Shown in pieces: positions 4,486 to 22,547 of a DNA stretch of 34,702 nucleotides. Both the position numbers and the translations under genes were made by a program. The stretch's first letter is position 1; each line of letters starts with the position of its first letter. The notes beneath the pieces were generated by a model. The model saw only the letters and a list, made by a program, of their open reading frames with translations. It was not told the origin of the DNA and searched no databases. The DNA comes from Lachnospiraceae bacterium (GTDB lineage: Bacteria; Bacillota; Clostridia; Lachnospirales; Lachnospiraceae): positions 1 to 34,702 of the forward strand of contig JAFSCH010000013.1 in the NCBI GenBank assembly GCA_017436865.1, written 5' to 3'.

Positions 4486-4516
4486 AGAGCAAGCTGCAGA
4501 GCTTGCTCTTTTTTTT
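4486..4516 (+). terminator. intrinsic terminator of the DUF3048 gene
   Basis: AGAGCAAGCT (4486-4495) and AGCTTGCTCT (4500-4509) form a perfect 10-bp stem with loop GCAG and eight T residues (4509-4516). It is also the first hairpin of the structured element that follows. Confidence 0.92.
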
Positions 4517-4518
4517 GG

Positions 4519-4609
4519 TATTAGGAAATTGCTGTAACGTAGTGGTAGTTAAACAAGAATTTCGACAGAAATTCTTGCTAGTGTTTGCTGCAGAACAAGC
4601 ACTTTTTTT
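4519..4609 (+). repeat. structured intergenic element, copy 1 (linker + hairpin + second hairpin with T-run)
   Basis: Directly after the terminator comes the conserved linker beginning TATTAGGAAATTGCTGTAAC and continuing GTAGTGGTAGTTAA (4519-4552). It contains a small TAAC/GTTA stem with a 9-nt loop GTAGTGGTA. Hairpin 1 is CAAGAATTTC (4554-4563) with GAAATTCTTG (4568-4577), loop GACA. Hairpin 2 is AGTGTTTG (4580-4587) with CAAGCACT (4596-4603), followed by seven T residues, so the element ends in a second intrinsic terminator. Three other copies occur in the window (8480, 18141, and 22435 on the minus strand). Confidence 0.85.
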
Positions 4610-4641
4610 CTGATATTACGAAAAAAAACGAAAAAATAATA

Positions 4642-4669
4642 TAGACAAAACGAAATTATATGCTATACT
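4642..4669 (+). promoter_or_regulatory. promoter of the pullulanase gene
   Basis: TAGACA (4642-4647), 16-nt spacer, TATACT (4664-4669). It lies between the upstream double terminator and the pullulanase RBS (GAAGGAGG, about 4702-4709). No obvious catabolite-repression operator was seen by eye. Confidence 0.65.
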
Positions 4670-4716
4670 CATAGCTATAGGAGGATAAAAATCTATATAA
4701 TGAAGGAGGATTACAA

Positions 4717-7700
4717 ATGAAAAAGAAAATGACAGCAGGCTTTTTGGGCTTTCTTATGTTGGTGATGACAGTATTAACTTGGTTTGTACCAATGTTAGAG
4801 ACTCAAGCAGCGGGTAAGACATTAATAGTACATTATGGGGGAAGAAGCGATAATGATTATGAAGGCTGGAATCTTTGGCTATGGGAAGAAGGACGTGAAG
4901 GACAGCAAGTGTCTTTTACAGAAACGGATTCGTTTGGTCAGGTTGCAGTGTATCAGACAAATCGCAAACCTGCCAATATTGGTTTTATCGTACGTCTAAA
5001 TGAGTGGGAAGATAAGGACGTGGCAGAGGACAGATTTGTAGCAATGGATGAAGATATTGTTGAAATCTGGATAACCAGTGGCGAAGCAGAATTTGCAATC
5101 GAAGCACCGGAAGGGGCGGAAAGCTTTGATTTTGCAGCTTTAGAGCAGGCAAGACTTGATGTGTACAAGGAAGAAGGTGCTATGAAGCTGGATGTTCATT
5201 ATTACAATTTTGAACAAAGCTATAGCGCGGATACGGTAGAAGCGTATGCGTGGCCAGGGGATATGGCTGGCGGAAACTATCCCTATGTAGAAACAGACGA
5301 TTTTGGAGCACTGTTTCAGATTGGTATGAAGCCAGAAGATGGTGTTACTACAGCAGGTGTAAAAGTGATTCAGAATGGAAATGTAGACGCAGCGATAGAA
5401 TATCATATAGATTTAACAAAGGCAGTAGATAACGAACTTGATGTGTATCTGGTAGAGGGGAACCCAAATGTATGGTATGAAGTAAATGAGGTTGTTTACA
5501 ATCCAGTAATTGCAAGTGCCGTTTTTAGTGAGACTTCTAGTCAGGAAATTCAGATTACTGTATCAAAGCCGGTTGATGTAACGGCAGTAGAAAAATTTGC
5601 TGTTACCGATGAAGCAGGAACTAAGTATCCTGTGACAGCAGTAGAAAATGTAACAAACAATGAAGTAGTTTTAAAAATGGAGCAACCGTTAGAGCTTTCG
5701 AGAGCTTATCGTGTTGACTGTGAAGATTATGAAGGATGTCAGATAGCGATGGATAAGATTATTGGTTCTACTTATTTTGATGAACAATTAGCATACGATG
5801 GTGATGATTTAGGAGCAGTATATACAAAGGAAAAGACAGCGTTTCGTGTTTGGGCACCGACAGCGTTAGAAGTATCACTGAATTTGTATGAGGAAGGTGA
5901 CGGAGATAATTTAATAGAAACGTTACCAATGCAGGCAGATGTAAATGGTACATGGATCTGTGAAAAAGAGGGGGACTTAAATGGAGTATATTATACCTAC
6001 TCTATTAAGATTGGTAATAAGGTAAATGAAACAGTAGACGTATATGCAAGAACAACAGGGGTAAACGGTGATAGAGGAATGGTTATTGACTTAGCCTCTA
6101 CAGATCCGGAAGGTTTTGAGAATGATGTCAGACCAGGATTTAAGAATGATACAGATGCAGTTATTTATGAATTGCATATGAGAGATCTTTCTTCGGATGC
6201 TTCTTCAGGAATTCAGAATGTAGGTAAGTTCCTTGGACTAACAGAAAAAGGAACAAAAAATAGTGATGGGCTTGCGACCGGGTTAGATCATATTCTTGAC
6301 CTGGGTATCACACATATTCAGATTCTACCAAGCTACGATTATGCTACAGTAGATGAGAGTAAGACAGATTCCAATCAGTTTAATTGGGGATATGATCCTA
6401 AAAACTATAATGTACCAGAAGGTTCTTACAGTACAGATCCTTTCCATGGTGAGGTTCGTGTAAAAGAAATGAAACAAATGGTTCAGGCACTTCATGAAAA
6501 TGGCATTCGTGTCAATATGGACGTGGTTTATAATCATGTCTATAATGAAGAAAGCTCATGGTTTCATAAGACGGTTCCTGGCTATTATTTTAGAAAAGGT
6601 GGAAATGGCTCTGGATGTGGTAATGAAACAGCATCCGATAGAGCAATGGTAAGAAAATATATGGTAGATTCTGTTGTATATTGGGCAACAGAATATCATA
6701 TTGATGGTTTCCGTTTCGATTTGATGGCTAATCATGATAAAGAGACTATGATGGCAATTAGAGAAGCGTTAGATAAGATTGATCCATCTATTATGATGTA
6801 TGGTGAAGGATGGACAGGTGGTGAATGCATGCTACCAACTTCTGAACAGAGCTTAAAGAGCAGTACTTATCAGTTTGAGCGTATTGGTGCGTTTAGTGAT
6901 GATATTCGTGATGGTATTAAGGGACATGTATTTGATACCATGGAAAAAGGCTTTGTTAATGGTAAAGAGGGGATGGAAGAGACCATTAAGCTAGGAGTAG
7001 TTGGAGCAATCCATCATCCACAGATTTTGGCATCAGAGAATGTGAAATCGAATGGAAGTTGGTCAGGACAGCCTGGACAGAGTATTAACTATGTCTCTTG
7101 TCATGATAATCATACTCTTTGGGATAAGCTTGCAATTGCGAATGCAGATGACAGTGAAGAAGATAGAAGAAAGATGAATAAGCTTTCAAGTGCAATTATT
7201 CTTACTTCACAGGGTGTGCCATTCTTCCAGGCAGGTGAAGAAATGCTTCGTAGTAAGCCATCTGCAACCGTAGAGGGCGAATTTGAAGAAAACAGCTATT
7301 GCTCACCGGATTCTACGAATAGTATAAAGTGGGATAACAAGGCAAATGTCATGGATGTATATGATTACTATAAAGGTCTTATTGCGTTCCGTAAAGCTCA
7401 TGGAGCACTTAGAATGGCAGAAGCATCTGATGTTCAGACAAAGCTTGTATTTATGAGTGGTCTCGATGCGAATGTTGTAGCGTATACAATTGAAGGAAGA
7501 CCAAATGGAGAAACAGCAGATAAGATTGCAGTTATATTCAATGCAAATAAAGAAACTGTAAATATTCCACTTCCATCAGGTGAATGGGATATCTGTGTAA
7601 ATGGTGAAAAGGCAGGTTGTGAATCTCTTGGTACAGCTGTAGATAGTGTCTCAGTAGAAGGCATTTCGGCAATGGTTCTGGTACAGGGAGATGAAACAGT

Positions 7701-7875: not shown

Positions 7876-7891
7876 ATTGTGTATAACGAAA

Positions 7892-7923
7892 AAATGGGTG
7901 GTATAAAACCGCCCATTTTTTTC
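7892..7923 (+). terminator. intrinsic terminator of the pullulanase gene
   Basis: AAAATGGGTGGT (7892-7903) pairs with ACCGCCCATTTT (7909-7920), with one G-U and a 5-nt loop, and runs into seven T residues (7917-7923). About 150 bases of very AT-rich sequence follow with no visible gene. Confidence 0.9.
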
Positions 7924-8093
7924 TATCATTTTATTAAAAAACACAAAAAATATCTGAAAATTACTTGAAATTATACAAAATGTGTGATATAAATATATTT
8001 ATCAGACAATTATATAAATAATTTGATTATTATGTAAAAACAAAAAGTTTTATAAATAATATTTTTTATATATTGGCTAAAGGGGGAAATGTT

Positions 8094-8291
8094 ATGGATT
8101 TTATGGAAGGTAAGGGTGCAGAACAGGTAATCAGTGAGTATATCGAACGAGAGATGGCAGAATATAAGAAAGTAACAGAACGTGAGCTTGCTACAGCAGG
8201 CGTTGCACCAGAAGCAAAGCAGGCGTTTAGTAGAAAGCCATATTATAATGTGACAGGTTCTTTTGTAAAGAAACCGATTGTAAAATTGTAG
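8094..8291 (+). CDS. small hypothetical protein
   Basis: A 65-residue protein starting at ATG 8094 with a strong AAGGGGGA RBS at about 8080-8087. An upstream TTG at 8073 is in frame but lacks its own RBS. The sequence is charged and probably helical in the first half (EQVISEYIEREMAEYKKVTERELATAGV), then basic (AFSRKPYYNVTGSFVKKPIVKL). No Cys, signal peptide or membrane segment. I do not recognise a family. The gene is followed directly by a structured noncoding stretch and a terminator. The 11-mer ATATTGGCTAA just upstream (8070-8080) recurs before the zinc-ribbon gene at 17865. Confidence 0.65.
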   Translation: MDFMEGKGAEQVISEYIEREMAEYKKVTERELATAGVAPEAKQAFSRKPYYNVTGSFVKKPIVKL

Positions 8292-8446: not shown

Positions 8447-8450
8447 GAAA

Positions 8451-8476
8451 AGAGCGATAAAATCGCTCTTTTTTTT
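8451..8476 (+). terminator. intrinsic terminator
   Basis: AGAGCGAT (8451-8458) and ATCGCTCT (8462-8469) with loop AAA and eight T residues ending at 8476. It ends the small gene and structured stretch and forms the first hairpin of element copy 2. Confidence 0.92.
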
Positions 8477-8479
8477 ATG

Positions 8480-8570
8480 TAATAGGAAAGTGCTGTAGCG
8501 TAGTGGCAGTTAGACAAGAATTTCGTAAGAAATTCTTGCCAAAGTGCGTGCGCTGGCACGCACTATTTTT
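8480..8570 (+). repeat. structured intergenic element, copy 2
   Basis: Conserved linker TAATAGGAAAGTGCTGTAGC continuing GTAGTGGCAGTTA (8480-8512). The small stem is TAGC/GTTA, still paired through a G-U. Hairpin 1 is CAAGAATTTC (8515-8524) with GAAATTCTTG (8529-8538), loop GTAA. Hairpin 2 is AGTGCGTGC (8543-8551) with GCACGCACT (8556-8564), loop GCTG, then ATTTTT. Hairpin 2 differs in sequence from copy 1 but keeps full pairing. A partial repetition of the linker start (TATAGGAAACGCT, 8575-8587) follows immediately. Confidence 0.85.
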
Positions 8571-8638
8571 ACTTTATAGGAAACGCTCCGCGAGGATGTG
8601 CACGCTACCCACAAATCTGAGGGTAGAAAAATAGGGGG

Positions 8639-9043: not shown

Positions 9044-9057
9044 TTAATGGAGTGCTT

Positions 9058-9984
9058 ATGAAAACTAGAATTACAGAACTTCTGGGAATTGAGTATCCGG
9101 TTATTCAAGGCGGTATGGCATGGGTTGCAGAGTATAATCTTGCAGCAGCAGTGTCAGAAGCCGGAGGATTAGGAATTATTGGTGCAGGTGGTGCACCGGC
9201 TGAATTTGTCAGAGAACAGATCAGAAAAGCGAAGGAAGTTACAGATAAACCATTTGGCGTAAATATTATGCTGATGAATCCGGAGGCAGATGCCATCGCA
9301 CAGGTCATCGTAGATGAGGGTGTAAAGGTAGTTACAACCGGAGCAGGTAATCCTTCTAAGTATATGGATATGTGGAAGGCAGCAGGCGTTAAAGTAATCC
9401 CTGTTGTAGCAAGTGTGGCAATGGCGAAGCTTATGGAGAGAGGCGGTGCTGATGCGGTAGTTGCAGAGGGTATGGAAAGTGGTGGACATATTGGTTCCAC
9501 AACAACAATGGCTCTCGTTCCACAGATTGTAGATGCAGTAAACATTCCTGTTATTGCAGCAGGTGGTATTGCCGATGGAAGAGGTATGGCTGCTGCTTTC
9601 ATGTTAGGAGCAGAGGCGGTACAGATTGGAACACGTTTTGTTGTAGCAAGTGAATGTATTGTTCATGAGAATTATAAGCAGCAACTTGTAAAGGCAAAGG
9701 ATATTGATTCGGCAGTTACCGGTATGTCAACAGGTCATCCGGTACGTTCCATTAGAAATAAAATGACAAAAGAATATCTGCGTATGGAAAAAGAAGGAGC
9801 AGATTTCATGGAGCTTGAGAAGTTGACATTAGGTTCACTTCGTAAGGCAGTTGTTGAGGGTGATGTGGTAAATGGTACTGTTATGGCAGGACAGATTGCA
9901 GGTCTTGTGAAGAAAGAACAGCCATGTAAAGAGATTATCACAGAGATTGTGACCCAAGCTAACAAGCTTATGGGAGTACAATAA
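9058..9984 (+). CDS. fabK: enoyl-ACP reductase II (FMN-dependent)
   Basis: Reduces trans-2-enoyl-ACP in the last step of each elongation cycle with NAD(P)H and FMN; the triclosan-tolerant alternative to FabI. 308 residues from ATG 9058, preceded by TGGAG; an in-frame GTG at 9052 lacks an RBS. The TIM barrel shows QGGMAWVAEYNLAAAVSEAGG, GVNIMLMNP, the conserved H144 in GMESGGHIG (same position as the histidine of pneumococcal FabK), and the FMN-phosphate segment AAGGIADGRG with QIGTRFV. No fabI is present in the cluster. The operon carries a second, more divergent member of this superfamily at 15275. Confidence 0.94.
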   Translation: MKTRITELLGIEYPVIQGGMAWVAEYNLAAAVSEAGGLGIIGAGGAPAEFVREQIRKAKEVTDKPFGVNIMLMNPEADAIAQVIVDEGVKVVTTGAGNPSKYMDMWKAAGVKVIPVVASVAMAKLMERGGADAVVAEGMESGGHIGSTTTMALVPQIVDAVNIPVIAAGGIADGRGMAAAFMLGAEAVQIGTRFVVASECIVHENYKQQLVKAKDIDSAVTGMSTGHPVRSIRNKMTKEYLRMEKEGADFMELEKLTLGSLRKAVVEGDVVNGTVMAGQIAGLVKKEQPCKEIITEIVTQANKLMGVQ

Positions 9985-10017
9985 ACCGTTAAAACAGAAA
10001 GGCATGGTTAATACAAA

Positions 10018-10935
10018 ATGAGTAAAGTAGCATTTATGTTCCCAGGTCAGGGCGCACAATACGTAGGAATGGGAAAAGATTTTTATGATACCTATGATGA
10101 GGCAAAAGCAGTTTATCAGCTTGCAGGCGAAGCAACAGGACTGGATATGGAGTCTTTATGCTTTACCGAAAATGACAAGCTGAATGTAACAGAGTATACA
10201 CAGATTGCTATGCTTGCAACAGAGGTTGCCATTTTAAAGGTTGTAGAAGCAAAAGGAATTAAGGCTGATGTTTGTGCAGGATTAAGTCTTGGAGAGTATG
10301 GAGCTTTGGCAGCTGCTAAGGTTATGGAGCTTAAGGACTTATTCCGTTTAATCAGAATGAGAGGACTCCTGATGCAGGAGGCATATCCTGTAGGCGGTGC
10401 TATGACTGCAGTATTGGGCATGGATGCAGACAAAATCAAGGAAATCTGTGATAACACAGAGGGTATTGTAACCATTGCAAATTATAATTGTCCGGGACAA
10501 ATTGTAATTACCGGAGAAGAAGAGGCTGTTGGTAAGGCTGCACAGGCACTTTCAGAGGCGGGTGCAAAGAGATGCATTCCTTTGAAGGTGAGCGGGCCTT
10601 TCCATTCAGCATTATTAGAGGGAGCAGGTAGTAAGCTTGGTGAGGAACTGGAGAAGGTTACGATTCAGAAACCACAGATTCCTTATGTTTGTAATGTAGA
10701 TGCTACTTATGTTACGGAAGCAGATAGAATTAAGGAGCTTTTGGAGAAGCAGGTATCTAGTTCTGTATGTTGGCAGCAGAGTGTTGAGAATATGATAGCA
10801 GATGGCGTTGACACCTTTATTGAGATTGGACCTGGTAAGACATTAACCGGATTCATGCGCAAGATTAATAAGGATGTTAAGGTTATGAATATAGAGAATA
10901 TAAACGATATTGAAAAAGTTATGGAAGCGATATAA
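10018..10935 (+). CDS. fabD: malonyl-CoA:ACP transacylase
   Basis: Transfers malonyl from CoA to ACP to supply extender units. 305 residues. The N-terminus FMFPGQGAQYVGMG forms the oxyanion-hole region. The catalytic serine is S90 in GLSLGEYGAL, and the catalytic histidine is H196 in GPFHSALL. The C-terminal EIGPGKTLTGF is also typical. It lies between fabK and fabG, 33 nt after fabK and 24 nt before fabG, clearly co-transcribed. Confidence 0.96.
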   Translation: MSKVAFMFPGQGAQYVGMGKDFYDTYDEAKAVYQLAGEATGLDMESLCFTENDKLNVTEYTQIAMLATEVAILKVVEAKGIKADVCAGLSLGEYGALAAAKVMELKDLFRLIRMRGLLMQEAYPVGGAMTAVLGMDADKIKEICDNTEGIVTIANYNCPGQIVITGEEEAVGKAAQALSEAGAKRCIPLKVSGPFHSALLEGAGSKLGEELEKVTIQKPQIPYVCNVDATYVTEADRIKELLEKQVSSSVCWQQSVENMIADGVDTFIEIGPGKTLTGFMRKINKDVKVMNIENINDIEKVMEAI

Positions 10936-10959
10936 ATATCGCAGAAGCGAGGAGAAAAT

Positions 10960-11700
10960 ATGTTAACAGGTAAGGTTGCTCTGGTAACAGGAGCAAGCAG
11001 AGGAATTGGAAAAGAAATCGCGCTAACCCTGGCAGCAAATGGGGCAACCGTGATTGTAAACTATAATGGTTCCAAAGAGCGTGCGGATGAGGTAGTCAAA
11101 GAAATCGAGGCGGCAGGAGGAACTGCAGAAGCCATTCAGTGTAACGTAGCTGAGTTTCAGGCGAGTGAAGAGATGGTGAAGAACGTTCTTACAAAGTATA
11201 AGAAGGTGGATATCCTAGTAAACAATGCAGGAATCACAAGAGATGGACTTCTGATGCGTATGTCAGAGGAAGATTATGATGCTGTTTTAGACACGAATCT
11301 CAAAGGTACGTTCAATATGATTCGTCATTTATCACGCAGCTTTTTAAAGCAGAGAAGTGGAAAGATTATCAATTTATCTTCCGTAAGTGGAGTAATGGGT
11401 AATGCAGGACAGGCAAACTATTCTGCATCCAAGGCAGGTGTGATTGGTCTGACTAAGAGTGTGGCAAGAGAACTTGCTTCTAGAGGAGTTTGTGTAAATG
11501 CGATTGCACCGGGATTCATTGATACTGAAATGACACAGGCAATGCCGGAAGAAGCACAGAATGGATTAAAACAGATGATTCCACTTGGAAGGATGGGAGA
11601 AGCCGCAGAGGTAGCGAAGCTTGTTCTGTTCTTAGCAGGAAATGATTCAAATTATATTACAGGGCAGGTTATTAGTATTGATGGCGGAATGACCATGTAA
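10960..11700 (+). CDS. fabG: 3-oxoacyl-ACP reductase
   Basis: NADPH-dependent reduction of 3-ketoacyl-ACP. A 246-residue short-chain dehydrogenase: nucleotide-binding motif TGASRGIGKEIA at residues 10-21, structural NNAG at 88-91, and the catalytic set N113 (DTNLKG), S141, Y154 and K158 (YSASK). The C-terminus ITGQVISIDGGMTM is the FabG ending. RBS is GCGAGGAG. Position in the operon leaves no doubt that it is the fatty-acid enzyme rather than another SDR. Confidence 0.96.
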   Translation: MLTGKVALVTGASRGIGKEIALTLAANGATVIVNYNGSKERADEVVKEIEAAGGTAEAIQCNVAEFQASEEMVKNVLTKYKKVDILVNNAGITRDGLLMRMSEEDYDAVLDTNLKGTFNMIRHLSRSFLKQRSGKIINLSSVSGVMGNAGQANYSASKAGVIGLTKSVARELASRGVCVNAIAPGFIDTEMTQAMPEEAQNGLKQMIPLGRMGEAAEVAKLVLFLAGNDSNYITGQVISIDGGMTM

Positions 11701-11762
11701 CATGGAAGGATGCAATCTTGAGTTTGATAACTTTAGGTTTGTAGAGAAAGGATTGGCTATAT

Positions 11763-12998
11763 ATGAAGAGAAGAGTCGTAGTAACAGGTATGGGTGCAAT
11801 TACTCCAATCGGCAACAGTGTAGAAGCTTTTTGGGATAGCGTATGCGCAGAAAAGATTGGTTTTGCTCCAATTAGCTATTTTGATACAACGGATTATAAG
11901 TGTAAGCTTGCAGCTGAAGTAAAAGATTTTGATGCGGCACAGTTTATGGATAAGAAGGCAGCACGTAGAATGGAACAGTTCTGTCAGTTCGCAGTAGCTG
12001 CAGCAAAGGAAGCGATCGAGGATGCAGCACTTGATATGGAGAAGGAAGATCCGTACATGGTAGGCTGTGCAATTGGTAATGGTATCGGCAGTTTACAGTC
12101 TATGGAAAAAGAGCACACCAAACTCGTGGAAAAAGGACCAGGAAAGGTAGCTCCGTTATTAGTACCTCTTATGATTTCCAATATGGCAGCAGGAAATGTA
12201 AGTATTGCTTTTGGATTAAAGGGTAAGAGTATTAACGTAGTAACTGCCTGTGCAACAGGAACGAATTCCATTGGTGAAGCATTCCGTACCATTCAGTATG
12301 GCGATGCAGACGTTATGGTAGCAGGTGGTACAGAAAGCTCTATTACACCAATCGGTGTGGCAGGCTTTACTGCATTAACAGCATTGTCTTCTTGTGAAGA
12401 TCCGGCAAGATGTTCTGTTCCATTTGACAAGGATAGAAGTGGTTTTGTTATGGGAGAAGGTGCAGGTGTAGTTGTATTAGAAGAGCTTGAACATGCAAAG
12501 GCTCGTGGAGCAAAGATTTACGCAGAGGTAGTAGGTTATGGTTGTTCTTCTGATGCATTCCATATTACTTCTCCAGCAGAGGATGGAGCAGGTGCAGCTA
12601 GAGCTATGACAAATGCAGTTAAGGATGCAGGTGCCGAGCTTACAGATATTACATATATTAATGCGCATGGAACCAGTACACATCACAACGATTTATTTGA
12701 AACAAGAGCGATTAAACTTGCGTTTGGTGAGCATGCAAAGAATATTAAGATTAACTCTACAAAGTCTATGATTGGACATTTACTTGGTGCAGCAGGTGCT
12801 ATTGAGTTTGTTACCTGTGTAAAGGAAATCAAAAATGGATTTATCCATAGAACAGTAGGTTTGCAGGAGTCAGAAGAAGAGATGGATTTGAACTACTGTA
12901 AGAGCAGCTACAAAGAGGACGTAACTTATGCATTGAGCAATTCCTTAGGTTTTGGTGGACACAACACAAGTATTCTTGTTAAGAAGTACGAGGCGTAA
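11763..12998 (+). CDS. fabF: 3-oxoacyl-ACP synthase II
   Basis: Condenses malonyl-ACP with acyl-ACP in chain elongation. 411 residues. The Cys-His-His triad is C163 (TACATGTNSIGEA), H302 (NAHGTSTHHND) and H339 (KSMIGHLLGAAG). RRVVVTGMGAITPIG at the start and SLGFGGHNTS at the end are standard. It begins 62 nt after fabG, the largest gap in the first half of the operon. In many related operons accB follows fabF; here fabZ follows directly. Confidence 0.96.
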   Translation: MKRRVVVTGMGAITPIGNSVEAFWDSVCAEKIGFAPISYFDTTDYKCKLAAEVKDFDAAQFMDKKAARRMEQFCQFAVAAAKEAIEDAALDMEKEDPYMVGCAIGNGIGSLQSMEKEHTKLVEKGPGKVAPLLVPLMISNMAAGNVSIAFGLKGKSINVVTACATGTNSIGEAFRTIQYGDADVMVAGGTESSITPIGVAGFTALTALSSCEDPARCSVPFDKDRSGFVMGEGAGVVVLEELEHAKARGAKIYAEVVGYGCSSDAFHITSPAEDGAGAARAMTNAVKDAGAELTDITYINAHGTSTHHNDLFETRAIKLAFGEHAKNIKINSTKSMIGHLLGAAGAIEFVTCVKEIKNGFIHRTVGLQESEEEMDLNYCKSSYKEDVTYALSNSLGFGGHNTSILVKKYEA

Positions 12999-13019
12999 GG
13001 AAAGGTTTGGGTAACAGAC

Positions 13020-13451
13020 ATGGCAGTTTATACAGCAAAAGAAATATTAGAGATTATTCCGCATAGACATCCATTTATGTTGATTGATACGATAGAAGAG
13101 CTAGAAGAAGGTGTACGTGCAGTTGGTAAGAAGTGCGTAAGCTTTAACGAGCCATATTTTGCAGGCCATTTTCCGGGTAATCCGGTTATGCCTGGTGTAC
13201 TTATCATTGAGGCGTTGGCTCAGACAGGAGCGGTTGCGATGCTTGGGCTTCCTGAGTGGAAAGGGAAAACGGCATATTTTGTAGGGATTGATAAGGCAAA
13301 ATTTAAGCAGAAGGTTGTTCCAGGTGATGTTCTCATGTTGGAAACTAAGATTGTAAGAGTAAAGGGGCCTATCGGAGTAGGAGAAGCAGTTGCTACTGTA
13401 AACGGTAAGGTTGTAGCAAAGGCAGAATTAACCTTTGCGATTGGAGACTAG
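13020..13451 (+). CDS. fabZ: 3-hydroxyacyl-ACP dehydratase FabZ
   Basis: Removes water from 3-hydroxyacyl-ACP to give trans-2-enoyl-ACP, the substrate of FabK. A 143-residue hot-dog-fold protein. The catalytic residues are H50 in [12 protein letters not shown] and E64 in [18 protein letters not shown] at 15-23 is the family N-terminal signature. The fabZ stop overlaps the RBS of the next gene. Confidence 0.96.
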
Positions 13452-13465
13452 AGGTGATGAGCGTT

Positions 13466-15241
13466 ATGGGAAAGATGCAGTTAGTAAAGACAGGAAGACA
13501 ATTTCCGCTGAATCTCTATAACAAATTAGAAGATAAGTTAAAAAGCAAAGATACAAAGCAGAATATTACACCAGAGAAACAGGTAGTGGCAGAGGAAGAT
13601 AAGAGTGTCATTAAATGTCCAAAATGTGGAAAAATGGTGAATAAGGGAACGGTTATTAAAAAGAAGTATGTATGTTATGAATGCGGCGGATATTTCCGTG
13701 TAAGAACCAAAAATCGTATTCGTATGGTAGCTGATTATAATACTTTTGAGCCTTGGTTTGAGGATATGCCTGTAAGCAATCCGCTAAATTTTGAAGGGTA
13801 TGAAGAGAAGCTTGCAGCAGCCAGAGAAAAGACAGGATTGCAGGAAGCAGTTACGGTTGGACGTTGTAAGGTATTTGGTGAGGACATCGTACTTGGTGTG
13901 TGTGATTCCCGTTTCATGATGTCCAGCATGGGGCATGTTGTTGGTGAGAAGATTACACGCGCCATTGAAAAGGCAACGGAATTAAAGCTTCCAGTATTTA
14001 TTTTCTGCTGTTCAGGTGGTGCTAGAATGCAGGAAGGTATTGTATCCCTTATGCAGATGGCAAAGACCTCAGCGGCAATTAAGAAACATGGAGAAGCAGG
14101 TTTATTATACTGTTCTATTTTGACAGATCCGACAACAGGTGGTGTTACTGCTAGTTTTGCTATGCTTGGTGATGTCATTATGGCTGAACCGGGTGCGTTG
14201 GTTGGGTTTGCAGGTCCTCGTGTTATTAAGCAGACCATTGGTCAGGAGCTTCCGGAAGGCTTCCAAACAGCTGAATTCCTTGTAGAGCACGGAATTATTG
14301 ATGGTATTGTAAAGCGTGAAAATCTGAAGAAGACTATTTTCTTCTTGATCAAAACACATCAGTGTAATGGAAAACAGGAATTTGCAGATTTTAAGCAAAA
14401 TGATAATTTCCATTTTGAGTTAAGTGAGACCTTAAAGGAGCAGACATGGTTCTCTAGCCCTCGTTCTGCATGGGAAAAGGTAAAAGGTGTAAGACAGGTA
14501 GAACGTCCATCCGCAAGTGATTATATTTCTTATATTTTTGATAATTTTGTAGAAGCACATGGAGATAGAGCATTTCATGATGATGCAGCTATGATTGGAG
14601 GTCTTGCCTTTATTGATGGTCAGGCAGTTACTGTTATTGCTGATGAAAAAGGTAAAGACTTTAAGGAATGTCAGGAACGTAACTTTGGTATGCCAAAGCC
14701 AGAAGGTTATCGTAAGGCACTTCGTTTGATGAAGCAGGCAGAGAAGTTCAATCGTCCGATTATCAGCTTTGTTAACACACCGGGTGCATTCTGTGGTATT
14801 GAAGCAGAGGAGCGAGGCATGGGTGAAGCGATTGCAAGAAACCTTATGGAAATGTCAGCACTCAAGGTTCCTGTATTATGTATCTTGATTGGCGAAGGTG
14901 GCAGTGGTGGTGCACTTGCGACAGCAGTTGGAAACGAAGTGTGGATGATGGAAAATGCAACTTATGCAATTTTATCACCGGAAGGCTTTGCTTCTATTTT
15001 GTGGAAGGATTCTAATCGTGCACAGGAAGCCAGCGAAATTATGAATATCACAGCACAGGATTTAAAGAGACTTGGTGTGGTAGAGCAGATTATTCCTGAG
15101 TTTGGTGGAGCAGACCGCAAGACAACACAAGCAATTGCAGGATTTATGAAGGAAAATATCAAGCTGTTTTTGAAGAAATACAGTGGTAAATCCGGTGAGG
15201 AGATTGCCCAGGAGCGTTATAATCGTTTCCGCAATTTCTAG
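13466..15241 (+). CDS. accDA: acetyl-CoA carboxylase carboxyltransferase, beta-alpha fusion (AccD-AccA)
   Basis: Transfers the carboxyl group from biotin to acetyl-CoA to make malonyl-CoA. One 591-residue chain joins AccD (about 1-300) and AccA (about 330-591), normally separate subunits. The AccD half has the four-cysteine zinc ribbon CPKCG and CYECG (C51, C54, C70, C73) and [11 protein letters not shown]. The AccA half has [37 protein letters not shown] and [12 protein letters not shown] chose ATG 13466 because GAGGTGA sits 8 nt upstream; GTG 13454 and ATG 13457 are in frame but poorly spaced. No accB (biotin carrier) or accC (biotin carboxylase) occurs in the window, so those partners must be encoded elsewhere. 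Confidence 0.95.
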
Positions 15242-15274
15242 TGGAACAATCGTTATATTTAAAAAGGAAAAACT

Positions 15275-16309
15275 ATGAAAGTGGAAGAATTAAAGATAGG
15301 AGACCTCTGTGCAAAGATACCAGTCGTACAGGGAGGTATGGGTGTAGGTGTCAGCCTTTCTAAGCTTGCGGGAGCAGTTGCGGCAGCAGGTGGAGTGGGT
15401 GTGATTTCTACTGCGCAGATTGGTTTTCGATACCCTGAATTCAAGACGAATCCAATTGAGACAAATCTTAAGGCCATCGGTGAAGAGATTGCCAAGGCTA
15501 AAAAGCTTGCTAAAGGTGGTGTTCTTGGAGTGAATATTATGGTAGCTACAAGAAGATATGAAGATTATGTTAAAGCCGCAGTAGAAGCAGGTATTGATTT
15601 GATTATCTCGGGAGCGGGATTGCCGATGACCTTACCTGCATTGGTAGAAGGTGCAAAGACAAAAATTGCACCAATTGTATCCAGTGCAAAGTCGTTAAAT
15701 GTTATTTCAAAATATTGGATAAAAAAATACAATAGAAAACCGGATATGGTTGTCATAGAAGGACCTGAGGCGGGTGGCCATTTAGGTTTTAGTCGTGAGG
15801 AAATAGACAATTATACTAGAGAAACCTATGATGAAGAGATAAAGGCGATTTTATCCATAACAAAAGAGATGGAAGTTCCTGTTGTTGTAGCAGGTGGAAT
15901 CTATACCAGAGAGGATATGGAGCATTATCTTTCCATGGGTGCCTCAGGAGTACAGCTTGCAACTCGTTTTGTAACAACAGAGGAATGTGATGCAAGTGAT
16001 GCTTATAAGCAGGCATATATCAATGCAAAAAAGGAAGATATTGTGATTGTTAGCAGTCCTGTTGGAATGCCAGGCAGAGCGATTCATAATGCTTTTTTGG
16101 ATAAGGTAAATGCAGGGGAACGTTTTATGCGTGGCTGCAGACAGTGTATTAGTACCTGTAAGCCGGCAACGGCACCTTATTGTATTACAGAAGCGTTGAT
16201 TAATGCAGTAGAAGGACGTCTGGACGAAGGACTTATTTTCTGCGGAAGCAATGCATACCGAGCAGATAAAATTGAGAGAGTCGCAGACATTATGGAGGAA
16301 TTTGCATAA
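15275..16309 (+). CDS. FabK/nitronate monooxygenase-like flavin oxidoreductase with C-terminal Cys cluster
   Basis: A 344-residue FMN-dependent TIM-barrel enzyme of the nitronate monooxygenase/FabK superfamily. Visible motifs: VVQGGMGVGVSLSKLAGAVA, GVNIMVATRRYEDY, EGPEAGGHLGF (with the conserved His), and VVAGGIYTREDM with GVQLATRFV. Unlike the real FabK at 9058 it ends with a cysteine motif, C288-x2-C291-x3-C295-x7-C303 (CRQCISTCKPATAPYC), which could bind a metal or Fe-S cluster. It overlaps fabH by one base and lies inside the FabT-controlled operon, so a role in lipid metabolism is likely. Its substrate cannot be told from sequence. A second enoyl reductase or a redox partner are both possible. 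Confidence 0.85.
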   Translation: MKVEELKIGDLCAKIPVVQGGMGVGVSLSKLAGAVAAAGGVGVISTAQIGFRYPEFKTNPIETNLKAIGEEIAKAKKLAKGGVLGVNIMVATRRYEDYVKAAVEAGIDLIISGAGLPMTLPALVEGAKTKIAPIVSSAKSLNVISKYWIKKYNRKPDMVVIEGPEAGGHLGFSREEIDNYTRETYDEEIKAILSITKEMEVPVVVAGGIYTREDMEHYLSMGASGVQLATRFVTTEECDASDAYKQAYINAKKEDIVIVSSPVGMPGRAIHNAFLDKVNAGERFMRGCRQCISTCKPATAPYCITEALINAVEGRLDEGLIFCGSNAYRADKIERVADIMEEFA

Positions 16310-17295
16310 TGATGATTAATATAACCGGTACTGGAAGAGCTTTGCCGGAAAATATAGTTACAAATTTTGATATGGCAAAGATTGTTGAAACCTCTGATGA
16401 ATGGATTAGAGAGAGAACAGGAATTGCGGAAAGAAGAATTTCTACAGGAGATACGGTTGCATCTCTTTCAGCAAAGGCTTGTGAGCAGGCGTTAGAGATG
16501 GCAGGAAAGCAGGCAGAGGATGTTGATTTGATTATCGTTGCAACCTGTTCACCAGAAATGCTTCTTCCATGTGCAGCCTGTCAGGTACAAGGAATGATTG
16601 GAGCAAAGAATGCAGTAGCCTTTGATTTAAATGCTGCATGTTCAGGCTTTTTGTTTGGATTAAGTACGGTGTATGGATATTTACAGACAGGTCTTTACCG
16701 CAATGCATTAGTGGTTGGGGCAGAGGTGTTATCCAAGATTATTGACTGGACAGATCGCAGTACTTGTGTATTATTTGGTGATGGAGCAGGAGCGGCGTTT
16801 GTAGAAGCTGTTGAAGAGAATGGTGAAAATGCTGGAATTATCAGCATTTCGCAGGGTTCTGATGGTGCAAGAGGCATGGTGCTTAGCTGTCAGGAGAGAA
16901 AACTTTCTAATCCATATATAAAGGATGCAATTGGAGAAGAGAATAATTTTGTTCACATGAATGGTCAGGAAGTATATAAGTTTGCTGTAAAACAAGTACC
17001 TGCATGTATTCAGGATGCTTTAGACAGAGCAGGACTTACTGTGGATGACATAGATCATTTTGTATTGCATCAGGCGAACGTGCGTATATTAGAAGCTGTA
17101 GCAAAAAGACTGAAGGTAGATATTACAAAATTCCCTATGAATTTAAACAGGGTAGGTAATATGTCATCTGCAACCATTCCTGTTTTGCTTGACGAATTAA
17201 ACAGGGAAGGAAAGTTGAAAAAAGGAGATAAAATCGTTCTTTCAGGCTTTGGAGCAGGACTTACTTATGGTGCCTGTGTGTTGATTTGGAATTAG
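16309..17295 (+). CDS. fabH: 3-oxoacyl-ACP synthase III
   Basis: Starts fatty acid synthesis by condensing an acyl-CoA with malonyl-ACP. 328 residues with the FabH triad C111 (NAACSGFLFG), H254 (HQANVRILEAVAKRL) and N284 (NRVGNMSSATIP). TSDEWIRERTGIAERRI at about 28-44 is the family N-terminal signature. The start ATG overlaps the stop of the flavin oxidoreductase (TAATG), indicating translational coupling; GGAGGA at 16294-16299 is the RBS. The next ATG (16312) is a possible alternative. In streptococci fabH is near the start of the operon; here it is second to last. Confidence 0.96.
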   Translation: MMINITGTGRALPENIVTNFDMAKIVETSDEWIRERTGIAERRISTGDTVASLSAKACEQALEMAGKQAEDVDLIIVATCSPEMLLPCAACQVQGMIGAKNAVAFDLNAACSGFLFGLSTVYGYLQTGLYRNALVVGAEVLSKIIDWTDRSTCVLFGDGAGAAFVEAVEENGENAGIISISQGSDGARGMVLSCQERKLSNPYIKDAIGEENNFVHMNGQEVYKFAVKQVPACIQDALDRAGLTVDDIDHFVLHQANVRILEAVAKRLKVDITKFPMNLNRVGNMSSATIPVLLDELNREGKLKKGDKIVLSGFGAGLTYGACVLIWN

Positions 17296-17311
17296 AATAG
17301 TTGGAGAAGAG

Positions 17312-17764
17312 ATGGAAAAGAGTACAAACCGCACTTTGAATGAACTGCTGGTTAATTTATTTCATAATGTAATGGATATAGAGGCTGAGGCAGTTATTAC
17401 AGAAGAATTCAAGGATATTACCAATAATGATATGCATATCATTGAGGCAATCGGCAATGATGAGCCAAGAAGTATGTCTATGATTGCTAAAAGCTTAAAT
17501 ATTACTGTAGGTACGCTGACCACCAATATGAACAGTCTTGAAGAGAAAAAGTATATTTTGAGAGAGCGAAGTAAGGCGGATAAGAGAGTAGTACTTGTGA
17601 GTCTTACGGAAAAAGGAAGAAAAGCATTTTTTCATCATCGGGATTTTCATAGACGTATGATTCACTCCATTGTAAAGGACTTAGAAGAGGATGAAATGAA
17701 GGTATTAATTCGTTGTCTACAGAATCTGACAAAGTTCTTTGATGAGCAAAATGATAAAAAGTAA
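17312..17764 (+). CDS. fabT: MarR-family regulator of fatty acid synthesis, FabT-like
   Basis: A 150-residue winged-helix repressor. The layout FHNVMDIEAEAV, FKDITNNDMHIIEAIG, ITVGTLTTNMNSLEEKKYI, RERSKADKRVVLVSLTEKG closely follows streptococcal FabT, which represses fab genes when bound to long-chain acyl-ACP. It begins 16 nt after fabH and closes the operon. Two FabT-type palindromes lie at the operon promoter (8677-8711), so autoregulation of the whole operon including itself is expected. No T-rich terminator was seen right after it; the region to 17846 is AT-rich and may hold a promoter for the next gene. Confidence 0.88.
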   Translation: MEKSTNRTLNELLVNLFHNVMDIEAEAVITEEFKDITNNDMHIIEAIGNDEPRSMSMIAKSLNITVGTLTTNMNSLEEKKYILRERSKADKRVVLVSLTEKGRKAFFHHRDFHRRMIHSIVKDLEEDEMKVLIRCLQNLTKFFDEQNDKK

Positions 17765-18086: not shown

Positions 18087-18109
18087 TAAAGGCATAATAT
18101 TGAGGATAG

Positions 18110-18135
18110 AAGGATGGTGAGATACCATCCTTTTT
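18110..18135 (+). terminator. intrinsic terminator of the zinc-ribbon gene
   Basis: AAGGATGGT (18110-18118) pairs with ACCATCCTT (18124-18132), 5-nt loop, T-run to 18135. It is the first hairpin of element copy 3. Confidence 0.9.
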
Positions 18136-18140
18136 GTGTG

Positions 18141-18194
18141 GTAAGAAAGAGTTGTAATGTAGTGGTAGTTAATAAATAATTTGCCGCTGGGCAA
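18141..18194 (+). repeat. structured intergenic element, copy 3 (degenerate, hairpin 1 lost)
   Basis: The linker is recognisable as GTAAGAAAGAGTTGTAATGT then AGTGGTAGTTAATAA (18141-18175), with the small stem TAAT/GTTA kept through a U-G pair. Hairpin 1 is missing. Hairpin 2 is shortened to TTGCC-GCTG-GGCAA (18181-18194), nearly identical to the core of hairpin 2 in copy 4. It looks like a decayed copy of the same subtype. Confidence 0.75.
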
Positions 18195-18233
18195 TCATCT
18201 TTTCTATGGATTTTTGTATAATGGAGATAGAGT

Positions 18234-18794: not shown

Positions 18795-18986
18795 ATGCAT
18801 GGAAAAGATAATGAGATGGAAATATTAGAGAAAAATATTATCAGAAACTATAATGAGCTACTAAAGACTTTGTTAGAGGAAGGTGATATGGATACCCTGG
18901 AGCAGGTTATTATGGATGATGAATATCGGGAAAGACTCATGAGTATGCATACGAGTAAGCTTCGCGTAGAACACGAGCTGTTGTAG
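18795..18986 (+). CDS. small hypothetical protein
   Basis: A 63-residue acidic, probably all-helical protein (MEILEKNIIRNYNELLKTLLEEGDMD, then LEQVIMDDEYRERLMSMHTSK). It has an ideal RBS (AAAGGAGGT, 18780-18788), which makes it a credible gene despite its size. No Cys, signal or membrane segment. I do not recognise the family. It lies 29 nt before the secreted BspA-like gene and may be co-transcribed with it. Confidence 0.65.
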   Translation: MHGKDNEMEILEKNIIRNYNELLKTLLEEGDMDTLEQVIMDDEYRERLMSMHTSKLRVEHELL

Positions 18987-19015
18987 TTAGTATAAAAAGA
19001 TAGGGGTGGTATATT

Positions 19016-20083: not shown

Positions 20084-20094
20084 TTCATAATATA

Positions 20095-20132
20095 AAAATG
20101 GATGCCATCTGTAAAAGGATGACATCCATTTT
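20095..20132. terminator. bidirectional terminator
   Basis: AAAATGGATG plus CATC (20095-20109, one mismatched base) pairs with GATG plus CATCCATTTT (20118-20132). A-rich and T-rich flanks make it usable from both strands, serving the convergent genes 19016-20083 and 20142-20912. Confidence 0.9.
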
Positions 20133-20141
20133 ATATTCGAG

Positions 20142-20912
20142 TTAAGGTAGTAACTGCATTGCAATCTTTCTTCTATGTGATCTTGCAATACTTGCAAAAT
20201 GATTATAGAACCAAAAGGATTCTACCAATACATGATTAAGAATGCCAATTCTTTGTTTTACAGTACCCGTATAATAAGAACCACCGGTTGTAAATGGTAC
20301 GCGACGTTTCACACACGAAATTAAATCGGATTCCTTGGTAATTGTTTCCGGTATTTGTGTATAAGCTGTTCCTACACAATTCAAATTATGGGAATCACTA
20401 CCGCCAAAGGTTGCAAGGTTGTATGTTTGAGCTAGTAAAGAAGCTTTTTGGTTCGATTCTTCGGATTCACAGGAATTATATCCTTCCAAAAAATCAAAAC
20501 GCTTCATAATATCGGGATTTCTTTTATAAGCTTTGGTCTGTGTTATGCTTAAATGGCGTTCGCCACAAGGGTGGGCAGGACCTAAGATTCCACCATGAAG
20601 ATGAACAATATCTTGTAGAATACGGACAGGAAGTCCACGACACTCCAATAATAAAAGTTTTACATTTTCAGGCATGATCACTAAAATGTGACCTGCATCA
20701 ATCGTATCATATTCAATGCCCTTTAAGACTACAAAGTTTTTTAGGGTATTTTTGTGGTGGTCACGATATTTTCGAAATCCATTATAGGAATTATGATCAG
20801 TAACAAGCATTCCGTCAAAGCCTTTTTGTTGAAGAACTTTCATGTATTCCAGAACTGGGATTTTTCCGTCCAAAGAACCTTCCTGTGTGTGACAATGTAA
20901 ATCAAATTTCAT
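20142..20912 (-). CDS. PHP-domain metal-dependent phosphoesterase
   Basis: A 256-residue protein of the PHP superfamily. Metal-binding motifs are in order: DLHCHTQEGS at the N-terminus, TDHNSY near residue 38, and GGSDSHN near residue 180; PAHPCGE adds another histidine. These bind a di- or trinuclear metal centre that hydrolyses phosphoesters. I start at the internal ATG (20912), which has AGGTGAGG 8 nt upstream; the ORF extends seven codons further without a better RBS. Substrate unknown: stand-alone PHP proteins include nucleotide phosphatases and histidinol phosphatase, and there is no his gene nearby. The C-terminal 40 residues (YNHFASIARSHRRKIAMQLLP) are basic. Confidence 0.85.
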   Translation of the reverse strand: MKFDLHCHTQEGSLDGKIPVLEYMKVLQQKGFDGMLVTDHNSYNGFRKYRDHHKNTLKNFVVLKGIEYDTIDAGHILVIMPENVKLLLLECRGLPVRILQDIVHLHGGILGPAHPCGERHLSITQTKAYKRNPDIMKRFDFLEGYNSCESEESNQKASLLAQTYNLATFGGSDSHNLNCVGTAYTQIPETITKESDLISCVKRRVPFTTGGSYYTGTVKQRIGILNHVLVESFWFYNHFASIARSHRRKIAMQLLP

Positions 20913-21176
20913 TTCTATGTCCTCACCTTTCATTAACCATTATGGATTGCTTACTATGTGGCATTTCAAGTAAATGCGCATATCTATTCACCAGTTATTA
21001 TTTTACTACAAATAATGAAGTGCTTCAAATAACAGTATATGGAAAGCTGAGAGAAATATGAGGGTAATATTACGTGAATTTTTGGTACATATAACGGAGA
21101 AATGCAGAGAATAAAGCATTAGATATGCATAATGGGTATGAAATTCTTATAAAATAATTAAGATTTGAGACTTTTG
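20913..21176. other. intergenic, no gene seen
   Basis: Divergent spacer between the PHP gene and the PAP2 gene. It is AT-rich and carries no convincing ORF, RNA or repeat. The promoter of the PAP2 gene starts at 21177. Confidence 0.6.
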
Positions 21177-21205
21177 TTGACAATGTAGTACGCATATCAT
21201 ATAAT
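21177..21205 (+). promoter_or_regulatory. full-consensus promoter of the PAP2 gene
   Basis: TTGACA (21177-21182), exactly 17 nt, TATAAT (21200-21205). Both hexamers match consensus perfectly, suggesting strong constitutive expression of a gene that is otherwise unremarkable. Confidence 0.9.
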
Positions 21206-21235
21206 ATTTTTTCGAAAGAAAAGAAGGGATTAAAA

Positions 21236-21922
21236 ATGAAAAAAGTATTGAAAAAATCATTAAGAGAGTGTTGGTTTAAATATAAAGCATTAGTCATTAT
21301 GGCAGTGTATTGTGTAGTGTATTTGACAGTATTTTTCTATTTAGAACAGCGAAATACTTCTTATTATGTGATACAATTTGGGATTGATGCCTATATACCG
21401 TTTTGTGAATATTTTATTGTGCCATATTTGTTATGGTTTGCTTATGTGGCATTAGCGGTAGTTTATTTCGGAATAAAAGATCAAGAGGAAGGCAATAAAA
21501 TGATTGCATTTTTGATAGTAGGAATGACGGTTTTTCTAGTTATTTCTGCAGTATTTCCAAATGGTCATCATCTCAGACCTAAAACCTTTGCAAGAGATAA
21601 TGTTTTTATAGATATGGTGAAGAAGCTTTATGTTGCAGATACATCAACCAATGTACTTCCAAGTATTCATGTATATAATTCATTGGCAGTTATGATAACA
21701 GTATGGAGAACCAATTTACTAAAGAAACATAGAGTGATAAAAGCAAGTTTAATGTTTTTGGGTGTAAGTATTATTTGTTCTACCGTTTTATTGAAACAGC
21801 ATTCCATGTTGGATGTGCTGGTAGCGTTTATTCTTGGAGCACTGGTTTATACGATATGTTATCGAGATGAAGTGGCTACTCATCCCAATATGGCAAGAAT
21901 GAAAGCAAAATTAAAATTTTAA
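21236..21922 (+). CDS. PAP2-family membrane phosphatase
   Basis: A 228-residue integral membrane protein with about six hydrophobic segments. The PAP2 active-site motifs are visible in degenerate form: HHLRPKTF (C1, Lys/Arg), NVLPSIHVYNS (C2, catalytic His in PSIHV), and STVLLKQHSMLDVLVAF (C3, with the His-Asp pair). Members dephosphorylate lipid phosphates such as phosphatidic acid or undecaprenyl diphosphate; some act as inositol-lipid synthases, which this membrane topology could also fit. It is monocistronic, with a perfect promoter and strong terminator. A basic tail (NMARMKAKLKF) follows the last segment. Confidence 0.85.
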   Translation: MKKVLKKSLRECWFKYKALVIMAVYCVVYLTVFFYLEQRNTSYYVIQFGIDAYIPFCEYFIVPYLLWFAYVALAVVYFGIKDQEEGNKMIAFLIVGMTVFLVISAVFPNGHHLRPKTFARDNVFIDMVKKLYVADTSTNVLPSIHVYNSLAVMITVWRTNLLKKHRVIKASLMFLGVSIICSTVLLKQHSMLDVLVAFILGALVYTICYRDEVATHPNMARMKAKLKF

Positions 21923-21930
21923 ATACAACA

Positions 21931-21969
21931 AAACCGGCAGGAGACTCCCATTGACTCCTGCCGGTTTTT
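21931..21969. terminator. intrinsic terminator of the PAP2 gene
   Basis: AAACCGGCAGGAG (21931-21943) pairs perfectly with CTCCTGCCGGTTT (21955-21967) over an 11-nt loop, then a T-run. The A-run on its 5' side lets it work for the minus-strand antitoxin gene as well. Confidence 0.93.
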
Positions 21970-22041
21970 CTTTTTGTTCTTTTTCTTTTTCGATTCATGC
22001 TTATTAGGTAATTATTTTGAGTTACATTTCAGTTACTTGTA

Positions 22042-22239
22042 TTATATGCTGGAAGAAAGAGTCTTTGGGGAAAGCGTTGTAATAACAAAGCGTTCTACTT
22101 TGTCATAACTTTCTTCTGGCATTATATAAACTTTACGATTGCTTTTTAATGTTAAAGTAACTGCTTCCTTATCCTGATTAACCTGATCGCAGATTGCGTC
22201 AAAATCATTTTTAAGGGAATTAAAATTTATTTCTTTCAT
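22042..22239 (-). CDS. Phd/YefM-family antitoxin-like protein, orphan
   Basis: A 65-residue protein resembling the N-terminal DNA-binding domain of Phd/YefM antitoxins. MKEINFNSLKNDFDAICDQV, then EAVTLTLKSNRKVYIMPEESYDKVE, matches the usual pattern of a short strand, a helix with a D-x-V-N turn, two strands and a final SLEEY-like helix. The toxin-neutralising C-terminal tail is short and unlike typical ones (RFVITTLSPKTLSSSI). RBS AGGAGG lies 7 nt upstream. No toxin gene (RelE/YoeB, Doc, PIN) is next to it on either side. It may be an orphan regulator or the remnant of a toxin-antitoxin pair. Confidence 0.7.
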   Translation of the reverse strand: MKEINFNSLKNDFDAICDQVNQDKEAVTLTLKSNRKVYIMPEESYDKVERFVITTLSPKTLSSSI

Positions 22240-22259
22240 TGGGGAACCTCCTAATTCTT

Positions 22260-22321
22260 GTCACTATGGGGAATGTGTTAGTGACTTTCTAAATAATACA
22301 TAATTTTTCGAACAATTTCAA
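22260..22321 (-). promoter_or_regulatory. promoter and palindromic operator of the antitoxin-like gene
   Basis: On the minus strand, TTGAAA (22321-22316), 17-nt spacer and TATTAT (22298-22293) form a good promoter. Just downstream lies the inverted repeat GTCACTA/TAGTGAC (22260-22266 and 22279-22285), covering the expected start site. Phd/YefM proteins are known to repress their own promoters at palindromes, so this is a likely autoregulatory site. Confidence 0.65.
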
Positions 22322-22434
22322 GTGAAATTTTCAGAATTATGTAAATAATTTAAAAATTGTATAGAATGACAAAAAAACGACTAAAATTTTGTTAAAAAAG
22401 AAAAAAGTAATAAAAATTGAAAAGATATAAAAAA

Positions 22435-22547
22435 GTGATTGCCCAGCGGCAATCACTCAAAGAATTTACTTCGTAAATTCTTTATTAACTACCACTACGT
22501 TACAGCAATTTCCTATTATTTAAAAAAGCTCCTGCATAACAGGAGCT
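22435..22547 (-). repeat. structured intergenic element, copy 4 (minus strand, complete)
   Basis: Read on the minus strand: terminator AGCTCCTG/CAGGAGCT (22547-22527) with six U's; linker TAATAGGAAATTGCTGTAAC then GTAGTGGTAGTTAA (22518-22485); hairpin 1 AAAGAATTTAC/GTAAATTCTTT (22483-22459, loop of 3); hairpin 2 GTGATTGCC/GGCAATCAC (22456-22435, loop GCTG), then TTTTTT. Same order as copies 1 and 2 but opposite orientation, with no gene on the minus strand just upstream; the nearest one, the glycerophosphodiesterase, ends at 22963. Confidence 0.85.

Follow-up and report, generated by a model that had tools for sequence, protein, structure and literature searches.

SPRITE elements of Streptococcus pneumoniae resemble Rho-independent terminators and are enriched near the 3' ends of genes, BOX elements are modular with an optional middle module, and pneumococcal repeats insert into one another; the sections of the source cited here state that a duplication could not be established for SPRITE (PMC3049150). 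Prokaryotic miniature inverted-repeat transposable elements (MITEs) are short, non-coding and of high copy number, with direct repeats at the insertion (PMC10969869), and group IIC introns insert at intrinsic terminators and, in a smaller fraction, at attC sites (PMC4424553). Here we describe an element of about 88 bp that is present in four copies in contig JAFSCH010000013.1 of a Lachnospiraceae genome (assembly GCA_017436865.1). The analysed window is this one whole contig, 34,702 nucleotides of a 4.2-Mb genome. The four copies are very probably members of a family of non-autonomous mobile repeats that targets terminators and regenerates them.

The dispersed, high-copy occurrence of the repeat, its absence at most orthologous sites compared, its flank repeats and its tandem arrays show that the element is mobile, and position statistics show that its insertion is oriented and directed to terminators. 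A preliminary description of this DNA had offered three options. High copy number, orthologous absence, flank repeats, tandem nesting and terminator-specific placement support one of them, a mobile element that targets terminators; the other two, a read-through attenuator and a small RNA derived from a 3' untranslated region (3' UTR), are less favoured.

Judged on anatomy, SPRITE and BOX are nearest in kind to the element. Like them, it is short, non-coding, interspersed, terminator-like, modular and clustered, and its optional hairpin is comparable to the middle module of BOX. Unlike them, it is found downstream of a terminator that was already there, in a single orientation and with a T-tract on both sides, and forms head-to-tail arrays; insertion directed to terminators is not reported in the cited sections on SPRITE and BOX. 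Repetitive extragenic palindromic (REP) elements are defined by a tetranucleotide, GTAG or GGAG, that stands at the palindrome's foot. The element and REP elements with tyrosine transposases are both high-copy extragenic palindromes, but the element has two hairpins, a long conserved left end and flank repeats, and its GTAG, several bases before HP1, does not appear to be at a hairpin foot. With MITEs it shares short length, high copy number, the non-coding and dispersed nature and presence/absence differences, and at 21 of 38 isolated sites it has direct repeats that may be target-site duplications, but no terminal inverted repeats are seen and its placement behind terminators is strand-specific. 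Terminator targeting is common to the element (69 of 76 copies) and the group IIC introns of the cited sections, whereas the element has no Rfam group II match, is about 88 nt long and has flank repeats. The titles and abstract openings of the literature searched, mostly outside subscription papers, contain no description of the element family.

Anatomy of the element and its copies in the window

The element starts with a conserved left end (nnTnATAGGAAATTGC...GTTA). An A/T hairpin (HP1), which some copies lack, comes next, and a G/C hairpin (HP2) leads into a T-tract. The left end is made of five variable bases (consensus nnTnA) and then TAGGAAA(T/G)TGCTGTARCGTAGTGGYAGTTA. GTAG sits in the linker, several bases before HP1. 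The arm CAAGAATT... of the A/T-rich HP1 is recognisable in other genera too, and HP1 is cleanly missing in three listed copies (L008, L010 and L052). HP2 is variable with compensation, often has the loop GCTG, and precedes the T-tract. The preliminary description had counted a first terminator as part of the element; the first hairpin of each copy is instead the host gene's own terminator. The features in the window are as follows, with G409 denoting a genome of the same genus.

4485..4516 (+), host terminator (hairpin plus T-run) behind the open reading frame (ORF) 3329-4462, target of copy 1, outside the element; terminator scan 4485-4510
4517..4603 (+), copy 1: left end 4517-4551, HP1 4554-4577, HP2 4580-4603; 81.9 bits
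4604..4609 (+), T-tract right of copy 1 HP2 (flank repeat); 6 bp exact
8447..8477 (+), host terminator plus T-run, target of copy 2; same terminator, without element, in G409
8478..8565 (+), copy 2: left end, HP1 8515-8538, HP2 8543-8564; 115.3 bits
8566..8620 (+), flank TTTTTA, then start of another terminator-associated repeat (ACTTTATAGGAAACGCTCCGCGAGGATG...); absent from the G409 sequence here
18109..18136 (+), host terminator, target of copy 3; same terminator, without element, in G409
18140..18201 (+), copy 3, decayed: HP1 lost, HP2 kept in part; 25.9 bits, E 0.0022
22521..22548 (-), host terminator plus T-run, target of copy 4; same terminator, without element, in G409
22434..22520 (-), copy 4, type B hairpins: left end, HP1 AAAGAATTTAC/GTAAATTCTTT, HP2 AGTGATTGCC/GGCAATCACT; 68.9 bits
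22428..22433 (-), flank repeat TTTTTA of copy 4; 6 bp exact

A single covariance model (R2), built with a stated structure from 12 elements of one hairpin type including window copy 2, matches all four copies at about the positions first reported for them: 4520-4609 (+) with 81.9 bits, 8481-8570 (+) with 115.3 bits, 22428-22517 (-) with 68.9 bits, and 18140-18201 (+) with 25.9 bits and an E-value of 0.0022. The last of these, copy 3, had rightly been called decayed. With at most three mismatches, the core TGTARYGTAGTGGYAGTTA has 4 matches in the window against 0.07 expected, and 4 matches are reached in 0 of 100 shuffles. The z-scores of single-sequence folding are -1.39, -4.25, -3.98 and -5.16 for copies 1-4; therefore, copy 1 alone is not significant. 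The flank repeat of copy 1 is weak because it consists of T only, and at the place of this copy G409 has a terminator without the element, in diverged sequence. Copy 2 belongs to a recent subfamily, its 83-nt body being common to 19 sites.

As had been observed from the window, the stems differ in sequence yet pair. With 135 matches (109 distinct rows) aligned to fit the structure, 97.7% of cells are paired and 18 of 19 pairs are changed on both sides. When the partner is slid by 1-3 columns, 36-45% of cells are paired, and shuffling of the 3' letters gives a mean of 81.8%; the observed covariation is reached in 0 of 500 shuffles on any of five measures. The alignment leans to the structure, as the model used the stated structure and one hairpin type, and many rows are related copies; therefore, the cell counts overstate the number of independent events. 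On alignment A3, which mixes the two hairpin types, RNAalifold predicts no consensus pair; by inspection, the types are shifted by one base relative to each other there. The covariation is strong, yet it is no demonstration of RNA function. It had been taken to imply selection on RNA structure, but DNA hairpins read by an enzyme would keep pairing equally. For a mobile element such covariation is expected, because HP2 can terminate only when paired and any hairpin that an enzyme reads needs pairing too.

The linker stem TAAC/GTTA that had been proposed is not established and is dropped. The purine-pyrimidine association behind it (Fisher P 0.0017) is confounded by subfamily membership, and copies 1 and 4 fold at minimum energy through another helix; in these folds TAGGAAA of the left end pairs with the T-tail. 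A likeness to the tRNA D-arm finds no counterpart in a scan of the window, which gave no tRNA gene. In Rfam, no family reaches its gathering threshold at the element, where all matches are sub-threshold, and a known RNA family is rejected on this ground. The only listed window match is the large bacterial signal recognition particle RNA at 2953-3216 (+), with 159 bits.

Copy number, placement and flanks

The family, first described from four copies, is much larger. Its 18-nt core has 69 exact occurrences in the genome versus 0 for the reversed pattern, and 77 sites in the genome stretches fetched have a recognisable left end and right hairpin. One identical 83-nt body is present at 19 of the 77 recorded sites, indicating recent spread. 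In the stretches read, copies form head-to-tail arrays with a period of 93-94 bp and up to three in a row. One adjacent pair is spaced by 67 bp because its first copy has no HP1.

Of 38 genomes of the genus, 11 (source genome included) have BLAST matches to copy 2, some of them short or to the neighbouring repeat only. The left-end pattern, with at most three mismatches, occurs at 20 places in G409, 22 in G412, 19 in G408, 9 in G417, 2 in G406 and 0 in G413, compared with 1 match (in G406) of the control pattern across all six genomes; the hairpins differ by species. Across 397 genomes of the Lachnospiraceae, the exact core is present in 1, and the covariance model finds the family in 8, from 8 genera and including the source genome, in a scan with stricter filters that lose weak matches and with at most 11 candidates scored per genome. 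In G286, which belongs to another genus, all 11 scored candidates match; in the stretches read, copies directly follow a hairpin and T-run and carry another HP2, and four form an array at 92 bp. The core is also found in at least 7 stretches of named records from four Lachnospiraceae metagenome-assembled genomes, SUG387 (4), RGIG3133, RGIG1692 and RGIG2054. Plasmid and phage collections contain no match to copy 2 at an E-value of 1e-5, and viral contigs contain no exact match of the left-end pattern; a plasmid or phage origin is rejected on these results.

A hairpin with a fold energy of -6 or lower that ends at a T-run precedes 69 of 76 copies, compared with 173 of 1500 control T-runs sampled from the stretches of the same genome. 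A T-run of three within 22 bases is missing for 1 of 77 copies. In 52 of the 58 cases that have 1 kb or more on either side, the element and the closest gene upstream share a strand. Therefore, the elements are mostly located behind host terminators, in the terminator's own orientation. A bare T-run followed by TAGGAAA is found 40 times versus 6 times reversed in the source-genome stretches, which were chosen for having elements.

About 46% of G409 (1.30 of 2.8 Mb) was compared with the element flanks, and the compared stretches contain 13 model matches at an E-value of 0.1 or better. The element is absent from G409 at 14 of 16 orthologous sites, these being the recorded sites with a usable counterpart in the stretches read. 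The empty sites are those of the four window copies and of L002, L003, L014, L021, L032, L045, L047 (at 2119), L050 (about 16.1 kb), L051 and L053. By inspection, the native terminator is visible at 11 of the 14; in particular, at the place of window copy 3 the same terminator runs straight into the leader of the next gene. The places of L003 and window copy 1 have diverged around the junction and that of L050 is filled by another repeat, so the comparison shows absence there, not exact junctions. Placement is not conserved between the species, which argues against a conserved regulatory role.

Flank repeats were scored at the 38 isolated sites, where no abutting family member is recognised, between the bases left of the element minus its five variable bases and those right of HP2. 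Of the 38 sites, 21 have left and right flanks that share 6 bp or more exactly (permuted mean 9.0, maximum 16), a count reached in 0 of 2000 permutations. The repeats are 6-7 bp long, T-tract included. Among the 20 sites with a right tail other than TTTTTA, 10 have a repeat of at least 5 bp (permuted mean 4.5, maximum 9). The right tail is TTTGTTC at 11 of the 38 sites, and at 7 of these 11 TTTGTTC is on the left too. One copy flanked by TTTGTTC (L028) is located at a hairpin-ATTTTGTTC segment beside IS91-type genes; in G412 and G417 this segment has no element and GTTC once, while the source genome has TTTGTTC on both sides. The segment may be the end of an IS91-type unit. The 6-7 bp repeat may be a true target-site duplication or a recombination overlap, either of which gives the same pattern. 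The sites with no exact repeat could result from recombination between array members, or from site-specific recombination via a 6-7 bp overlap.

A proposed insertion mechanism and its alternatives

As the position statistics show, the element inserts into or at the end of the T-tract right behind an intrinsic terminator, or behind a comparable hairpin plus TTTGTTC, in the orientation of the terminator. By the flank correlation, insertion goes with a direct repeat of 6-7 bp whose first bases belong to the T-tract. HP2, the right end of the element, and the repeated T-tract rebuild a terminator-like structure; as read from the letters, hairpin and T-tract are restored, and they presumably act in termination. 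With a rebuilt terminator, transcription probably still stops, so that insertion is probably harmless and is probably tolerated through continued termination. The new T-tract would be a fresh target, and the next copy would land behind the last to give arrays with a period of 93-94 bp. Pairing of the compensated stems would be needed in the terminator RNA, in a DNA hairpin read by the enzyme, or in both, and we take the enzyme to act in trans. The element may also provide a small RNA or have a local effect on termination.

Terminators tend to be regarded as passive gene ends. The family appears to use them as safe landing sites that are rebuilt at each insertion, and such rebuilding would allow multiplication without breaking transcription units. 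The family is a tangible, testable example of the way a small repeat can spread in bacteria and would explain the stacked terminators of these genomes. For RNA surveys it is a caution, as covarying hairpins beside terminators may be mobile DNA. The enzyme, if found, would be a hairpin-guided, orientation-specific integration system.

Several observations weigh against the proposed mechanism. There is no exact repeat of at least 6 bp at 17 of the 38 isolated sites, and at L011, L027 and L045 a right TTTGTTC stands opposite a left tail without GTTC. Two of the seven TTTGTTC pairs (L017 and L051) have the same upstream repeat, so these sites are not fully independent, and the comparison at L028 is paralogous, not orthologous, with the same segment but another flank. 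By inspection, the ends of the element (nnTnATAGGAAA / GCACGCACTA) are not inverted repeats. Two of 58 copies lie inside a predicted ORF, and the G409 stretches have no enrichment of a bare T-run followed by TAGGAAA (24 versus 35 reversed). At L003, L014 and L053 there is no clear native terminator in G409. The G409 flanks are only about 72-93% identical, and the exact junctions are therefore inferred. At 2 of the 16 sites (L018 and L031) G409 carries an orthologous element with other hairpins, for which recombination between copies or a second event is needed. No mobilising enzyme was found, and the contig-end units resolved no autonomous partner.

Could an IS91-type (HUH, Y2) transposase mobilise the element as a miniature rolling-circle element, with a hairpin end followed by GTTC? 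GTTC is the target of IS91-family elements, and TTTGTTC is the right tail at 11 of 38 sites and the left one too in 7; moreover, one copy lies at hairpin-ATTTTGTTC beside Zn_Tnp_IS91/Y2_Tnp, and similar fragments are found at the window end. However, the other flanks mostly have a T-tract followed by A instead of GTTC, and the transposase copies found are truncated. A miniature of this type would have GTTC at one end and no direct repeat, whereas direct repeats are present here; IS91-type elements are not, to our knowledge, known to leave them. We consider this origin unlikely. A similarly doubtful reading is a cassette-like recombination system of the Lachnospiraceae, in which a terminator hairpin plus T-tract would serve as attachment site, the element would be a minimal cassette with its own terminator as recombination site, exchanged in the T-tract/TTTGTTC overlap, and units that have this left end (ACTTTATAGGAAAG...) but different and longer bodies would share the machinery; terminators would then be integration sites across the chromosome.

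The strong covariation of the paired stems, the long conserved left end outside the hairpins, the position downstream of same-strand genes and the TAGGAAA/T-tail pairing predicted for copies 1 and 4 at minimum energy would also fit a conserved cis-acting RNA, either a read-through attenuator or a 3'-UTR small RNA, that is under selection and occasionally duplicated. But 14 of the 16 orthologous places compared lack the element, no Rfam family reaches gathering score at it, copies stand in tandem arrays and 19 sites share one and the same body, all of which make such an RNA decidedly improbable. We give still less credence to a relic or satellite of group IIC introns, even though the target class is the same in the cited sections (PMC4424553), as the element is about 88 nt long and has no Rfam group II match. 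The copies also carry flank repeats at 21 of 38 isolated sites. We know of no reason to expect such repeats from intron insertion. Finally, the genome is metagenome-assembled, its record gives 7.68% contamination and several contigs end in or near repeats, but an artefact of assembly or strain mixing is hardly credible, since the copies have distinct flanks and subfamilies and relatives with the same anatomy are found in other assemblies.

Longer units and neighbouring repeats

Hairpins of the mobile repeat family appear to be exchangeable modules, as at L031 (position 6368) the source genome has type B hairpins and G409 type A. Between L031:6360-6459 and L094:1510-1599, both hairpins are exchanged between the species and the left end shares the less common variant GTTACG. 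This difference suggests a module swap or gene conversion.

Longer units are found at five contig ends of the source genome, where the sequence goes on from ACTTTATAGGAAAGTTCTCCTTCGGAG..., and at two of G409, where it goes on from ACTTTATAGGAAAGTTCTCAAAAAG...; all run off their contigs. These longer units have the same first 18 bases (CTTTATAGGAAAGTTCTC) and different bodies. Such contig-end units, starting with ACTTTATAGGAAAGTTCTC and with two different bodies, are found in L019, L035, L057, L176 and L177 (G000) and in L184 and L186 (G409); they are candidates for a cargo-bearing or autonomous relative. The longer units have no match among plasmids or phages, and the longer pattern has none in viral contigs. 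Three viral contigs matching the 18-nt start contain one identical sequence that overlaps the start of phage-like ORFs, which we take as chance.

A degenerate IS91-type module is located at 33834-34607 (-) of the window, whose contig ends at 34702. It comprises a tyrosine-recombinase fragment (PF00589), Zn_Tnp_IS91 and the C-terminal part of Y2_Tnp. Zn_Tnp_IS91/Y2_Tnp and tyrosine-recombinase genes also lie beside the L028 copy. Fragments of the two types thus adjoin one copy and the window end, and may have a causal role. Because the genes next to the L028 hairpin are fragments of the IS91 and tyrosine-recombinase types, an integron reading of it was dropped.

A second terminator-associated repeat family (GCTCCGCGAGGATG...; in L017 with GTCGCAAGCGACCGCGCTCGGCGCGAG...) is present at window 8572-8620 and in L017, L097, L124 and L134. 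Its members are stacked near T-tracts, and the repeat upstream of the L017 and L051 elements ends with hairpin-TTTGTTC. Between window copies 2 and 3, positions 9052-17764 contain a putative fatty-acid synthesis cluster (FabK-like, FabD, FabG, FabF, FabZ, acetyl-CoA carboxylase and FabH), closed by a MarR-type regulator as predicted from its translation. Fold-back palindromes of the left end (e.g. CTTTATAGGAAAC..GTTTCCTATAAAG) are found beside or between T-runs at the following places.

L323, about 560-600 (-), fold-back palindrome
L102, 1524, fold-back palindrome
L107, 1582 (-), fold-back palindrome
L048, about 150-200, fold-back palindrome
L097, about 1600-1640, fold-back palindrome
L124, about 2920-2960, fold-back palindrome

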